A DNA stretch of 30,456 nt from a virus. Below the pieces are notes generated by a model. That model was not told where the DNA came from and searched no databases. It saw only the letters and a list, made by a program, of their open reading frames with translations. The stretch's first letter is position 1, and every line of letters starts with the position of its first letter. The stretch spans positions 1 through 30,456 of the IMG/VR virus record IMGVR_UViG_3300030106_002189; one strand, 5' to 3'. Below, one piece after another: positions 20,244 through 29,769 of this stretch. The translations under genes were made by a program, and so were the position numbers.

Positions 20244-20423
20244 ATGAAACCATACTGGAAAGTAATACCAGGTTCAATTGAACAGGAAATGCAACATAAA
20301 AAAATTATAGAATTACATTCTAAAGGTTACTCAACTAGACAAATTGCAAACTTTGATTATATTTTATATAGCAAATCCTACATAAATAAATTTATTAATA
20401 ACCAAAAAAACAAACAAAAATGA
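20244..20423 (+). CDS. Small helix-turn-helix protein
   Basis: ATG at 20244 gives 59 residues. The central part (KKIIELHSKGYSTRQIANF ... SKSYINKFI) reads like a resolvase/homeodomain-type HTH: helix, 'KGYSTRQIA' second helix and a recognition helix. The stop overlaps the SSB-like gene start (ATGA). A transcription regulator or replication accessory is plausible. The gene at 20790 has a related HTH pattern. Confidence 0.55.
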   Translation: MKPYWKVIPGSIEQEMQHKKIIELHSKGYSTRQIANFDYILYSKSYINKFINNQKNKQK

Positions 20424-20761
20424 GTGAACAATTAAAATTAACTGGCACTATTACAAAAGTGTTAGAAGTAGAACAAGGAACTAGCAAAGCTGGTAAAGAA
20501 TGGAAAAAACAAAGTTTTGTTATTGATACAGGCGATCAATATAATCCTGAAGTTTGTTTTCAACTATTTGGTGAAGATAAAATTCAAATGTTAAACGGTA
20601 TTAACACGGGCGACAAAATAGAAGTTTTGTTTAATTTGTCTTCTAGAGAATACAACGGGCGTTATTTTCACAACGTTGACGCTTGGAAAATTAACAAAAC
20701 TGAAGCACAAGAACCCACACCAGTAAACGCAGACGAAAGCGAAGACGATTTACCGTTTTGA
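20420..20761 (+). CDS. DUF3127-like OB-fold protein, SSB-like
   Basis: This 113-residue protein has an OB-fold pattern (LTGTITKVLEVEQGTSKAG, KKQSFVIDTGDQYNPEVCF, GDKIEVLFNLSSREYNGRYF) and ends in an acidic tail DESEDDLPF. The acidic tip with D-D-x-P-F is the hallmark of single-stranded DNA-binding proteins, used to recruit partners. The core resembles DUF3127, a family found in Bacteroidota and their phages. It probably coats ssDNA during replication. It lies close upstream of nuclease, initiator and helicase genes. Confidence 0.8.
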   Translation: MSEQLKLTGTITKVLEVEQGTSKAGKEWKKQSFVIDTGDQYNPEVCFQLFGEDKIQMLNGINTGDKIEVLFNLSSREYNGRYFHNVDAWKINKTEAQEPTPVNADESEDDLPF

Positions 20762-21604: not shown

Positions 21605-22051
21605 ATGAGCAAAGAACTACCGTATTTAAAATTTTTTCCAGAACAATGGCTTTCAGGCGACATTAATTACTTACCATTTGAATTACAGGGGGCGTTTACG
21701 ACTTGTATGGCTCACTATTGGGCGAACAATTGTAAAATGTGTTACAATAAATTATTAATGCGTTTAAAAGACGAAAAAATACTAAAACAATTAATAGAAA
21801 ATGGATTAATTGAAACAAACAAAAACAATATTAATATTAAATTTTTAGACGAACAATATAAGGAATTTATAGAATTACACGAAAAAAGGGTTAAAAATGG
21901 TCGTAAAGGCGGAAGCCAAACCCAAGCCAAGCTTAAGGGGGGCTTAAGCAACACTAAAGCATTAAGAAAAGATAAAATAAAAAAAGATAAATACGACAAC
22001 GATAATCTTTTGAAAGTAAGTGATGACGTTAAAAAACTACTTTCGAAATGA
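21605..22051 (+). CDS. Replisome organizer / replication initiator-like protein
   Basis: This 148-residue protein starts KELPYLKFFPEQWLSGDINYL and continues FELQGAFTTCMAHYW. This is the DUF1376-like winged-helix pattern seen in phage replication initiation proteins ('y.kfy..dWl.d...Ls...rgay..ll'). A second helical part (LDEQYKEFIELHEKRVKN) leads to the basic GRKGGSQTQAKLKGG linker and a charged C-terminus. The ATPase gene follows with an ATGA-type overlap, the standard organizer-helicase pair. An iteron array with 11-bp period (21931-21972) lies inside this gene, as the lambda origin does in gene O. Specific origin binding is inferred. Confidence 0.65.
   Translation: MSKELPYLKFFPEQWLSGDINYLPFELQGAFTTCMAHYWANNCKMCYNKLLMRLKDEKILKQLIENGLIETNKNNINIKFLDEQYKEFIELHEKRVKNGRKGGSQTQAKLKGGLSNTKALRKDKIKKDKYDNDNLLKVSDDVKKLLSK
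21931..21972 (+). repeat. Iteron array A, candidate replication origin inside initiator gene
   Basis: GCTTAAG occurs at 21931-21937 and 21942-21948, exactly 11 bases apart. A degenerate third unit, ACTAAAGCATT (21953-21963), follows and runs into AAGAAAAGA (21964-21972). The 19 bases 21954-21972 (CTAAAGCATTAAGAAAAGA) recur exactly at 29031-29049, again next to GCTTAAG units with 11-base period. The + strand side is an A-rich tract (to about 21997) that could unwind easily. One helical-turn spacing suggests repeated protein binding on one face. Confidence 0.65.
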
Positions 22052-22905
22052 TTTTAGACGATAAACAAACTTTAAAATACTTACACGCTTATAAAGACGG
22101 TAGAATTAAACAAGGGTTGGGAGTTGGTTTGCCAATGTTAGACAAACACCTAGTTTTAAAAAAAGCTCAATTTGTAATGTGTCTAGGGTTGGACAATTGC
22201 GGTAAAACGTTTTGGTTGCTTTGGTATTTACTTTGTCAGGCAAAACTAAACAACAAAAAATTTATTATTTGGAGCGGTGAAAATAGAGCTGGTCAACTTA
22301 AAAGGGATATTATACAAATGTGGTTAGGTGTTAAATTTAAAGACATTATAAAAAGCAAAATTGACTTTTACAACCAAGAAATAAGTAAATACTTTAAGTT
22401 TTTAGATAACTCTAAAATGTACACCGTTAACGAATTATTAAATATTTTTGCAGACGCAGAAGTAGACGGGTGTGTAATAGATCCCTTTACTGGATTAAAC
22501 CACCCAAGAAACACACCTATTTTTGAACGTAATTATATTTTCTGTAATTTAGTTAGGGAGTTCTGTAATAAAACGGGTAAGAGTGTTTACGTTTGTATGC
22601 ACCCGCAGACCGAAGCAGCTAGGAGGGTTTACCCCGCAGACCATATTTTAAACGGACATATACAACCACCACGAAAAGCAGACTGTGAAGGGGGGCAAGT
22701 GTTCCCTAATAGGGTAGACGACTTTATATGTATTCACAGATTAATATCGCACCCAGATTTGTGGATGATGACAGAACTACACGTTTACAAAGTTAAAGAC
22801 AAAGAAACTGGAGGAAGCCCCACAATGCTAGGCGATCCGTTAAGGTTTGATTATAACAACGGTCTAGGCTTTACTCTAGGAGGTGTTAACCCTTTAAATA
22901 TATAG
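22048..22905 (+). CDS. RecA/DnaB-type ATPase, probable replicative helicase
   Basis: This 285-residue protein has a Walker A motif GLDNCGKT (47-54) after the strand QFVMCL, a second strand FIIWSGEN (DnaB motif H1a-like 'SGE') and a Walker B strand GCVIDPF at about 141-147. Near the end come CEGGQVFPNRVDDFICIHR and VYKVKDKETGG, which correspond to the DnaB H3/H4 region and arginine-finger area. It lacks the DnaB N-terminal domain and is close to a bare RecA-core length. It overlaps the organizer-like gene by 4 bases, as expected for an initiator-helicase pair. It would unwind DNA at the fork. Confidence 0.75.
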   Translation: MILDDKQTLKYLHAYKDGRIKQGLGVGLPMLDKHLVLKKAQFVMCLGLDNCGKTFWLLWYLLCQAKLNNKKFIIWSGENRAGQLKRDIIQMWLGVKFKDIIKSKIDFYNQEISKYFKFLDNSKMYTVNELLNIFADAEVDGCVIDPFTGLNHPRNTPIFERNYIFCNLVREFCNKTGKSVYVCMHPQTEAARRVYPADHILNGHIQPPRKADCEGGQVFPNRVDDFICIHRLISHPDLWMMTELHVYKVKDKETGGSPTMLGDPLRFDYNNGLGFTLGGVNPLNI

Positions 22906-27173: not shown

Positions 27174-27600
27174 CTGTGGGAATGGTTCTGAAGCTTATAG
27201 AAGGGCTTACAATGTAAAGCCAACAACGTCAAACGATGTTATTAAAGTTAGTGCAAATGAGTTACTAAGAAACCCTAACATATCCCTAACAATTGACAAA
27301 TTAAGAAAACAACAGGCGGACAAGTTCGAAATAAGCCGCTCAGACGTTGCTAAGGGCTATTTAGAGATAATAAACGCGTGGCGTAGTCTAATGGTACTAG
27401 CTTCAAAAGAAAAGCTCTCTAAGGACGAAAAACAGAAGTTTTATTTATTAAAGGAAATGGTTAAGGGTTCGGACTATCGAGGGGCGTTTGATAGCCTAGC
27501 GAAGATGTTCGGACTAAACGAACCAGACAAAACACAAATAGACCAAACGGTCAAAGAAATCCAAGTAGTAATTAATCGTGGAAGTAACGGAGATATTTGA
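27109..27600 (+). CDS. terS: Terminase small subunit
   Basis: This 163-residue protein has the Terminase_2-like pattern KLTPKQRRFAEEYVDCGNGS, EAYRRAYNVKP, VIKVSANELLRNPNI (an N-terminal HTH region for DNA recognition), then a helical oligomerisation part (SRSDVAKGYLEIINAWRSL) and a C-terminal tail. The only usable start is TTG at 27109, since the frame has a TAA at 27106-27108. It recognises the viral DNA end or pac site and loads the large subunit. It overlaps the terL start by 23 bases, the usual coupled arrangement. Confidence 0.85.
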   Translation: MKELPDIKLTPKQRRFAEEYVDCGNGSEAYRRAYNVKPTTSNDVIKVSANELLRNPNISLTIDKLRKQQADKFEISRSDVAKGYLEIINAWRSLMVLASKEKLSKDEKQKFYLLKEMVKGSDYRGAFDSLAKMFGLNEPDKTQIDQTVKEIQVVINRGSNGDI

Positions 27601-28759
27601 TAAAAATTATTTTAGTGAAGCCAAAATAGTAGTAAACAGAGGGGGTACTAGGTCTAGTAAAACCTATTCTTTAAACCAAATTTGTGCGTTATGGTTAATT
27701 AGTGGAATGTATGGCGAAAACCTTTATTTATCTGAAGGTATTTGGACTTCTGTCCGTAAGTATAGAACCAACCTAGACGGAACAATAATAAGGGATTTTG
27801 AGGAAATACTAAAACAAAACGGTTACTACAATATGGTTGACCATAACAAAACCAAAAAAACGTATAAATTCAAAAAGCGAATGGTTGAGTTTATAGGAGC
27901 AGACGATCAACAGAAGCTAAGGGGAGCAAAACGAAACATTCTATACTGTAACGAGGCTAACGAATTGGAATATAAAAAGGAGTTTTTTCAATTGTTAATG
28001 CGTACTGAAAACAAAATATTTTTAGACTTCAACCCAGATGACGAACAAGTGTGGATTAATCAGGAACTAGAAATAAAACGTTCTGCGGAAGTTGGTGACG
28101 TTGAGGTAATTGTCAGTAATTACAAAAATAATTCCTACCTACCCAAAAGCTTAATTAAAGAAATTGAATACCTACAACAAACCGATAAAGAGTTCTGGAA
28201 AATATATGGGTTAGGTGAATACGGTAATATAAGCGGTTTAATTTACGAAAACGTGGAGTATGTCGAAACAATGCCTGAATGTGATTTAGTATCGTATGGC
28301 TTAGACTGGGGATATAGTTTAGATCCAACCGCCTGTGTTGGTGTTTATAAACGTGGTGAAGAATTGTATTTAAAAGAAATACTTTACGAAAAAGGACTTA
28401 CCAACCAAGACATAGCGGAACGTCTAAAGCCTATTGTTGGAAGGGAAGAAATAATCTGCGATAGTGCCGAACCAAAGTCAATAGAAGAATTGTATCGTTT
28501 AGGTTTAAACGTTAAACCAGCTACTAAAGGCAAGGACAGTATCAACAACGGAATAGACATTTTAAAACGTTATAAAATAAAGGTTGTTAACGGTTCTAAT
28601 TTGCGTAAAGAGTTTAGGTCTTATAAATGGGCAACGGACAAAAATGGTAATTCATTAAACAAACCAATTGACAAATTTAACCACCTATTAGACGCATTAA
28701 GATACGTTGCATTAATACACCTTAAAAAACATAATAGGGGTTGGTATGCAATACGTTAA
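27578..28759 (+). CDS. terL: Terminase large subunit
   Basis: This 393-residue protein has the ATPase motif RGGTRSSKTYS (Walker A variant, 22-29) with an adenine-binding-like region just before it, and a Walker B-like strand ILYCNEA (121-127, catalytic Glu126). The C-terminal nuclease has three acidic positions in GLDWGYS (about 243), ICDSAEP (about 294) and FNHLLDALRY (about 371). This is the PBSX/XtmB-like type of packaging motor, which cuts concatemers and pumps DNA into the prohead through the portal. Length is near the short end for the family (about 400-550). It converges with a minus-strand gene with one base between the stops. Confidence 0.9.
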   Translation: MEVTEIFDKNYFSEAKIVVNRGGTRSSKTYSLNQICALWLISGMYGENLYLSEGIWTSVRKYRTNLDGTIIRDFEEILKQNGYYNMVDHNKTKKTYKFKKRMVEFIGADDQQKLRGAKRNILYCNEANELEYKKEFFQLLMRTENKIFLDFNPDDEQVWINQELEIKRSAEVGDVEVIVSNYKNNSYLPKSLIKEIEYLQQTDKEFWKIYGLGEYGNISGLIYENVEYVETMPECDLVSYGLDWGYSLDPTACVGVYKRGEELYLKEILYEKGLTNQDIAERLKPIVGREEIICDSAEPKSIEELYRLGLNVKPATKGKDSINNGIDILKRYKIKVVNGSNLRKEFRSYKWATDKNGNSLNKPIDKFNHLLDALRYVALIHLKKHNRGWYAIR

Positions 28760-28760
28760 A

Positions 28761-28931
28761 TTATCTTTTTTCTGCTTTCCAAAATTCGCCATTCTTATAA
28801 TAAATTTTAGCCATTATTCGATATTTGTTCCAAAGTTTTTTACTGATTGGCAAAATATGGTTTTCGTCAAATATTCTTGACATTTTGGACTCTGTATTTA
28901 CTAATTCAATTTGTTTTTTTGTTAACTTCAT
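28761..28931 (-). CDS. Only minus-strand gene: small basic protein, unknown
   Basis: Reading the minus strand from ATG at 28931 gives 56 residues (MKLTKKQIELVNTESKMSRI, then FDENHILPISKKLWNKYRI and YYKNGEFWKAEKR), with TAA at 28763-28761. The protein is basic and helical with aromatic residues and no membrane segment. All other genes are on the plus strand. Its promoter region contains the iteron array B (28975-29049), so it may be controlled by, or control, whatever binds there. It could be a DNA-binding regulator, but no family is recognised. Confidence 0.6.
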   Translation of the reverse strand: MKLTKKQIELVNTESKMSRIFDENHILPISKKLWNKYRIMAKIYYKNGEFWKAEKR

Positions 28932-28974: not shown

Positions 28975-29049
28975 GCTTAAGTATGGCTTAAGTACTGCTT
29001 AAGTGTTGCTTAAGTACTGCTAACATTTTGCTAAAGCATTAAGAAAAGA
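28975..29049 (+). repeat. Iteron array B, second candidate origin or operator
   Basis: Six 11-base units in tandem: GCTTAAGTATG (28975), GCTTAAGTACT (28986), GCTTAAGTGTT (28997), GCTTAAGTACT (29008), then degenerate GCTAACATTTT (29019) and GCTAAAGCATT (29030). AAGAAAAGA follows. The end (29031-29049) is identical to 21954-21972 in array A. It lies in a 202-base region between the minus-strand gene and the tail chaperone gene. A-rich and AT-rich sequence follows on the plus-strand side. Iteron, operator and packaging-signal roles are all possible. Confidence 0.75.
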
Positions 29050-29068
29050 AAAGAAAAGAAAAGAAAAG
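29041..29068 (+). repeat. AAAAG microsatellite
   Basis: AAG followed by five AAAAG units, purine-only on the plus strand, directly after iteron array B. Such purine tracts are flexible or easily unwound and could belong to an origin; they are also prone to length variation. The sequence from here to 29133 is AT-rich without a gene. Confidence 0.85.
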
Positions 29069-29133
29069 ATATATAAGAAAAAAAATATTTTTGTTAAACG
29101 TGTTATTATTGAAAAATTTTATATATATAGACT

Positions 29134-29769
29134 ATGGAGCTTAAAATACCTACCAGCTGGGAAGACATAACATTAGGACAATACATTGAACTAAGACCAA
29201 TACTACAAACTAAACAAGACGATATTAAAAGGGTAATTAATATTCTTTGTGTTTTAACGGGTAAAAAAAGGGAAGAAATTAGAAACGTAACAATACCAGA
29301 CTTTCACAAATTAGTTAAAAAGATGTCGTTTCTAAATGATCCCTTACCTAAACAACTAAATAAAAGAAGGTTTTTAATTGGAGGTAAATGGTACGAGTTT
29401 AAGTTAGACGCTAAAAAAATGTTGTTTGGAGAGTATATTAGCGTTATGGAAATACTGCAAAAGTCAGGAGATAACGAAGACTTATTATTTAATAACCTAC
29501 ATAAAATATTAACGGTTATTTGCAGACCAGTATATAAAACGTTATTCGGTTTTAAAAGTGTTGACATAGACGGGGATTTAATACGGGAAACGGCTAACAA
29601 CTTTTATAACAATATGCCAATAACAATAGCTTACCCGATAGGTGTTTTTTTTTATCAACGCTATCCAACCTTAACGGAAACTATAAAAACTTCTTTGATG
29701 GAGGAAGCCGAAAAGAAGATAAAGGAAGTAAAAACAGATTTACAGAAAGCTGGGGCTGGTGGAGTTTAA
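29134..29769 (+). CDS. Tail assembly chaperone (short form)
   Basis: This 211-residue protein starts ELKIPTSWEDITLGQYIEL and continues with DIKRVINILCVLTGKKREEI, LIGGKWYEFKLDAKKM, FGEYISVMEILQKSG and a C-terminal AYPIGVFFYQRYP. This pattern resembles the tail assembly chaperone (gpG-like) of Bacteroidota siphophages. Such proteins wrap the tape measure during tail assembly and are made in two forms by a ribosomal frameshift. A slippery run at 29646-29652 and an open -1 frame to 29924 follow (next entries). It is the first gene after the iteron region. The chaperone identity rests on pattern plus the frameshift arrangement. Confidence 0.7.
   Translation: MELKIPTSWEDITLGQYIELRPILQTKQDDIKRVINILCVLTGKKREEIRNVTIPDFHKLVKKMSFLNDPLPKQLNKRRFLIGGKWYEFKLDAKKMLFGEYISVMEILQKSGDNEDLLFNNLHKILTVICRPVYKTLFGFKSVDIDGDLIRETANNFYNNMPITIAYPIGVFFYQRYPTLTETIKTSLMEEAEKKIKEVKTDLQKAGAGGV
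29646..29652 (+). other. Slippery heptamer T-TTT-TTT for -1 frameshift
   Basis: In the chaperone frame the codons are GGT GTT TTT TTT TAT (29641-29655), a run of nine T. The heptamer T TTT TTT (29646-29652) is an X-XXY-YYZ site, on which both tRNAs can re-pair after slipping back one base. The -1 frame is open from 29610 to 29924, well past the zero-frame stop at 29767-29769. I did not find a clear downstream pseudoknot by eye. Confidence 0.7.

Follow-up and report, generated by a model that had tools for sequence, protein, structure and literature searches.

By analogy, the closest studied system to the locus described here is oriL/oriR of phage SPP1. There, G38P binds oriL, which lies inside gene 38, and oriR, which lies in the late, moron-bearing segment, and fork stalling at oriR has been proposed to start concatemer synthesis (PMC6316719, PMC3485210). 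In lambda, the iterons and AT-rich tract of ori-lambda are located centrally within the initiator gene O, and iteron number varies among lambda relatives and changes the length of the O protein (PMC7466680). Each of these arrangements is compared below with the window, by which we mean the whole 30,456-base stretch of DNA analysed here. The iterons of lambda are about 18-19 bp long and have dyad symmetry. The satellite phage P4 has two distant sites, ori and crr, with the same iterons and one replication protein, and its alpha protein is a primase-helicase. In plasmids P1 and F, a second group of initiator-binding repeats (incA and incC, respectively) lies some distance from the origin; plasmid iterons measure about 19-22 bp, and the second group has no unwinding element.

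Profile matches (Pfam and PHROG) give the window the gene content of a tailed phage, and nearly all of its genes are co-directional. A scan of genome contigs, aimed at the host through prophages, gave four MAG loci, three of them named Bacteroidetes and one Fibrobacteres. The host is probably a Bacteroidetes bacterium. Neither tRNAs nor Rfam families were found in the window, and a search for its DNA-level relatives in the phage collection gave nothing useful. A likely phage SSB is encoded at 20420-20761, with matches to DUF3127 (Pfam, E 2e-29) and to the PHROG annotation "single strand DNA binding protein" (E 4e-28).

Two arrays of the heptamer GCTTAAG at 11-bp spacing are present in the window (Table 1). 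The sequence-only reading had described the first, inside a putative initiator gene and followed by the helicase gene, as two perfect repeats exactly 11 bases apart with a degenerate third unit; the repeats are as it described them. Its inventory was correct for the in-gene array but overlooked a second, longer and noncoding array after terL. This array 2 has more and better units than array 1 and lies between terL and the next structural-side gene, beside a short minus-strand ORF. All plus-strand copies of GCTTAAG in the window, and likewise all six CTTAAG sites, fall in arrays 1 and 2. Four occurrences of GCTTAAG-N1..10-GCTTAAG were found, one in array 1 and three in array 2, versus 0.00 expected from 100 dinucleotide shuffles of the window. 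The minus-strand ORF itself (28761-28931, 56 aa) is located between terL and array 2 in a plus-strand region, and its position looks like a slot for inserted genes, because relatives carry other insertions or none there.

Table 1. Features of the two arrays and their surroundings, in window coordinates
Feature	Position	Strand	Remarks
Replisome-organizer-like gene, 148 aa, putative initiator carrying array 1	21605..22051	+	phrog_29280 match; directly before helicase gene
Array 1, unit 1, GCTTAAG	21931..21937	+	codon phase 0 for CTTAAG
Array 1, unit 2, GCTTAAG	21942..21948	+	codon phase 2; 11 bp from unit 1
Array 1, unit 3, ACTAAAG (5/7 matching)	21953..21959	+	in 11-bp register; codon phase 1; then GCATTAAGAAAAGATAAAATAAAAAAAG
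19-bp tail CTAAAGCATTAAGAAAAGA	21954-21972 and 29031-29049	+	identical at both arrays
A-rich purine tract, putative unwinding element	21967..21992	+	loose 5-bp repeats
Helicase, DnaB/primase-helicase type	22048..22905	+	phrog_18375 E 9e-19, phrog_19 E 1e-7; overlaps organizer stop
Terminase large subunit (terL)	27578..28759	+	Pfam Terminase_3 / 3C, phrog_2; constant reference point before array 2
Array 2, four perfect GCTTAAG (28975, 28986, 28997, 29008)	28975..29014	+	11-bp spacing; noncoding
Array 2, degenerate in-register units GCTAACA (29019), GCTAAAG (29030)	29019..29036	+	
5.8 perfect tandem copies of the 5-bp unit AAGAA, running into TATATAAG; putative unwinding element	29041..29069	+	Tandem Repeats Finder
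Next structural-side gene after array 2	29134-29769	+	

SPP1 and the window share an origin or candidate origin inside the organizer gene, in an operon that also encodes a helicase, and a second, similarly built intergenic site in the late region, with direct repeats and an AT-rich region at both. The SPP1 sites are about 12-13 kb apart and their binding by the organizer has been measured, whereas here the arrays are putative binding sites, are separated by 4.3-7.1 kb, and the second directly follows terL. The system described here also differs from SPP1 in bacterial phylum and in its composition of 11-bp units followed by 5-bp purine repeats. The sequence-only reading had invoked the lambda O/ori arrangement. 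The likeness holds in that both initiator genes harbour iterons and an AT-rich tract in mid-sequence, but lambda has a single site whereas the window has a second array elsewhere, and the 11-bp spacing differs from the lambda-type iteron length. The SPP1 parallel is closer, because array 2, noncoding and placed after terL, repeats the units of array 1 and has the 19-bp tail in common with it. P4 resembles the window in having two distant sites with the same iterons and differs in sequence and host. The plasmids P1 and F resemble it in having a second repeat group away from the origin, but they differ in unit length and in lacking at the second group an unwinding element, a putative one of which is present at array 2.

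The window organizer matches phrog_29280, a family of unknown function that includes Cellulophaga phage organizers (E 8e-19); the organizer of L291, from another group, matches it with E 2.8e-197. Matches to PHROG "primosomal protein" families were weak, none was found to phrog_678 ("O-like") up to E 0.1, none to Pfam above cut-off, and no sequence relatives of the organizer family were found in the PDB. An O-like family match is seen only in a relative with a longer organizer (L112), whose C-terminal part matches "replication initiation O-like" (E 5.7e-14), and not in the window organizer. An AlphaFold model (51 sequences, mean pLDDT 76) consists of a confident, mostly helical domain followed by a low-confidence linker. 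Residues 9-86 of the model gave the winged-helix-like matches; we term this predicted domain only "winged-helix-like", because winged-helix and other matches alike do not exceed Z 7.3, and their Foldseek E values are all higher than 0.08. At residues 111-122, where array 1 is encoded, pLDDT is below 50 and the organizer is predicted to be unstructured; the sequence-only reading had noted a low-complexity linker here.

The repeats of array 1 are rarely produced by the encoded peptide. Among 20,000 synonymous-codon shuffles of the window organizer gene, a spaced GCTTAAG pair arose in 11 and a lag-11 score as high as the observed one in 16. GCTTAAG at the third unit would put a TAA stop in frame. 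The A-rich tract that the sequence-only reading pointed out is present, but its 5-bp periodicity is not significant in the window gene alone (493 of 5,000 synonymous shuffles reach it) and becomes so only across the family.

Relatives were collected without reference to the repeats: the first sample comprised the 80 best of 383 viral-contig relatives, selected by an N-terminal protein motif only, plus the window. These 735,146 bases contain 77 CTTAAG-N5-CTTAAG clusters (at most one mismatch), versus 0-6 clusters for each of ten control palindromes in the same bases. Conservation of the units in related phages, which the sequence-only reading had proposed as a check, is borne out, and in most loci the linker DNA reads GCTTAAGCNNNGCT[A/C]AAGCATTAAGAAAAGA or nearly so. 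Codon usage was compared in 24 of 28 non-redundant short-clade genes (L219, L241, L242 and L243, which differ in linker layout, were left out), with the array region fixed beforehand as columns 112-127 from the reading-frame analysis. In eight of the nine conserved degenerate columns under the array, a single codon serves every gene with the residue (20 to 24 of the 24), and these single-codon columns include six-fold degenerate Leu, Ser and Arg and four-fold degenerate Ala. Excess codon identity is 0.44 under the array versus 0.11 in the 70 other columns, with a P of 1.5e-5 that is only indicative because the sequences are related. Across these 24 relatives, codon choice is thus almost invariant beneath the in-gene array, in contrast to the variable remainder of the gene.

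Another 80 loci, taken as a second sample, contained mostly other organizer groups, including those of L291 and L296. At the corresponding position, many of these linkers have 11-bp units of another sequence, for example AACCGAAANNA, followed by similar purine pentads; the linker of L277 carries four AACCGAAA-type units, then GGCATAAGAGAAGATAAGATAA. Periodicity was determined in 72 of 76 non-redundant organizer genes, L241, L255, L262 and L290 being dropped because they have no anchor motif. Across the 66-nt iteron region, identity is 0.49, 0.44 and 0.45 at lags 11, 22 and 33, versus 0.23-0.38 at other lags, and in the next 62 nt lags 5, 10, 15 and 30 stand out. In 200 synonymous shuffles of the 72 genes, lag-11 identity averaged 0.384 (sd 0.005) versus the observed 0.492, and lag-5 identity in the following tract 0.426 (sd 0.006) versus 0.506. 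The 11/22/33-bp and subsequent 5-bp periodicity of the linker thus exceeds what the protein requires.

Reading frames were assigned in 61 distinct arrays, with genes of fewer than two units or no anchor left out. The CTTAAG core occupies 15 of 28 units in phase 0 and 45 of 64 in phase 2. In phase 1, where CTTAAG is impossible because it creates an in-frame TAA, CTAAAG or CTCAAG (CT[AC]AAG) is found in 50 of 60 units. The phase order 0, 2, degenerate 1, 0 occurs in L004, L029, L250, L252 and L261. One DNA unit is therefore read in two or three frames and yields different peptides, which points to selection on the DNA. Stop avoidance as the sole cause of the degenerate third unit is only partly supported, since a terminal CTAAAG or CTCAAG also recurs in several noncoding arrays (terL groups of the window type and the L169 type). 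We also considered whether CTTAAG is avoided elsewhere through selection against stray initiator sites (75 outside arrays versus about 230 expected for all sites); this reading was dropped because the depletion is equalled or exceeded for many other palindromes.

The position of the second array is fixed after terL. In 21 organizer-selected loci (window included), a complete terL is followed by 100 nt or more; 17 of these 21 have an array 3' of terL, mostly at an offset of -2 to +10 from the terL end, with +219 in the window, +300 in L187 and +961 in L235. No array was found in the available 3' terL flank of L184, L194, L197 and L244, and none of the inspected loci, each exceeding 5 kb or including terL, had a cluster elsewhere than in the organizer or 3' of terL. 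A wider sample, biased in that it includes loci fetched by the repeat pattern, has arrays at 50 of 65 distinct terL ends. In 21 records the two elements share one strand and are separated by 4.3 to 6.5 kb; these are 22 pairs minus L244, whose second element is very poor. The window was missed by this filter owing to its degenerate unit at 29019, and its distance of 7,077 bp was taken from coordinates.

At both sites, the clade has a common module of units, a GCATTWAG joiner and purine pentads. In a search of 25 chosen records, a near-exact copy of the joiner was present at both sites in short-organizer records holding both regions, with two exceptions, L242 (28.7-kb record) and L244 (20.6-kb record), which include terL and have the in-gene copy only. 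The long-organizer records L095 and L112 (38 and 43 kb) have one site each. In four isolates with related organizers (phi19:1, morran9-1, Arctus_1 and Nekkels_1, the last searched over 50,000 of its 53,385 bases), a search for the linker array of each isolate elsewhere in its genome found no further copy, the best ungapped 44-base matches scoring 29-33 and being scattered. The second site is therefore not universal, being absent in the four isolates and in L184, L194, L197 and L244; the in-gene module is thus general, and the second copy belongs to the clade of the window. A separate observation concerns G071 and G088 (the records of L216 and L225), in which the joiner lies near both contig ends, in G071 together with terL; this suggests terminally redundant assemblies of roughly 30-kb genomes.

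We consider it likely that array 1 is the initiator-binding part of an in-gene origin and that the terL-side array of the clade is a second site or origin for the same initiator. The in-gene reading is based on anatomy: the initiator gene contains one-turn repeats, then a joiner and purine repeats that melt readily, and is followed by the helicase gene. As a candidate, the origin proposed in the sequence-only reading has gained good support, since its iteron-like units are conserved in relatives and the organizer model is unstructured where they are encoded. Cumulative GC skew, another check suggested there, rises through both arrays without a clear turn at either, with nearly all genes pointing one way, and was discarded as an origin indicator. 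We hypothesize that the 11-bp units, whose spacing is close to one helical turn, would serve the organizer as binding sites and that it would open the adjacent A-rich 5-bp purine repeats, whereupon the helicase from the neighbouring gene could be loaded; the organizer linker would provide free coding space to house the array. Since array 2 has the full module, the organizer most likely binds there too. The same initiator may bind it as a second origin; alternatively, array 2 may be a bound barrier at which the fork stalls, giving the concatemer mode needed for packaging. A further version would make array 2 a replication-packaging switch, at which bound initiator halts the fork from the in-gene origin so that concatemers form beside the terminase genes; selection would have kept this switch near terL despite the turnover of inserted genes around it, and it would have arisen independently of SPP1 oriR. 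This version is, in our estimate, rather unlikely.

For array 2, the strongest rival is copy-number control, in which array 2 would not be an origin but would titrate or handcuff the initiator, like the inc iterons of plasmids P1 and F. It ranks first because lambda replication is arrested when extra copies of ori are present at ectopic sites (PMC4488673), and the surplus of good units at array 2 of the window would fit such a role. However, the whole module is kept there, including a pentad tract that would be superfluous if the site only titrated, and we regard this explanation as unlikely too. Transcription control is less probable still. Tandem repeats are common operators, and arrays bound by a phage regulator could serve the replication operon from within and the structural operon from upstream, with an incidental A-rich tract; array 2 indeed precedes a structural-side gene beside an opposite-strand ORF. 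Yet array 1 is in the interior of a gene, the units of either site are invariably followed by A-rich pentads, and the window and L017 have an intact module at array 2 despite very different distances to the next gene. In addition, promoter-like sites near array 2 are at chance level (4 versus 3.5 expected by a sigma-70 consensus that may not fit Bacteroidetes).

Terminase sites are often near terminase genes, and the constant position 3' of terL in those 17 of 21 loci would suit a pac/cos element for terminase, the in-gene copy being a relic or decoy. Against this, the in-gene copy is present in every group, four isolates with related organizers do without a terL copy, array 2 is shifted by up to about 1 kb by gene insertions, and pac/cos is usually at terS or upstream of it; a packaging site is thus very improbable. 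That a repetitive, low-complexity linker peptide merely happens to yield DNA repeats draws on the low complexity of the linker and its low confidence in the model, but this purely protein-level cause is already contradicted by the frozen codons, by a periodicity that synonymous shuffles do not reproduce, and by a unit that is read in different frames and has a noncoding copy, and we give it almost no credence.

The in-gene origin with its second initiator site, our preferred reading, would offer a sequence-level handle on where replication starts in uncultured Bacteroidetes-type phages. Searches of an open-access library turned up no publication about such arrays in phages of Bacteroidetes. 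The composite module of group-specific 11-bp units followed by purine pentads is hidden in coding DNA and missed by ordinary annotation, and it presents a clear case of a protein linker whose sequence is dictated by DNA function. If array 2 works like SPP1 oriR, the two-site replication switch, known in detail from one Firmicutes phage, would be a recurrent solution, searchable and testable in many genomes.

Several other observations were made along the way. The window gene at 23197-24036 matches phosphoadenosine phosphosulfate reductase (phrog_424, E 2.8e-17) and may be an auxiliary metabolic gene. Spaced pairs of only two units occur inside a 71-codon ORF in one recurrent family of about 25 loci (e.g., L007:3820, L008:7041 and L019:637), which may be a coincidence carried by descent. 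Other long GCTTAAG arrays with 11-bp spacing are found at L020:3985 (nine units), L037:8705 (four perfect units) and L040:7143-7254 (two arrays). In L105, a different organizer-like gene (1425-2564, starting MSMSEKLPWFKFWVQDFL) contains GCTTAAG units, and three further perfect units form another array about 1.4 kb upstream, at L105:577.
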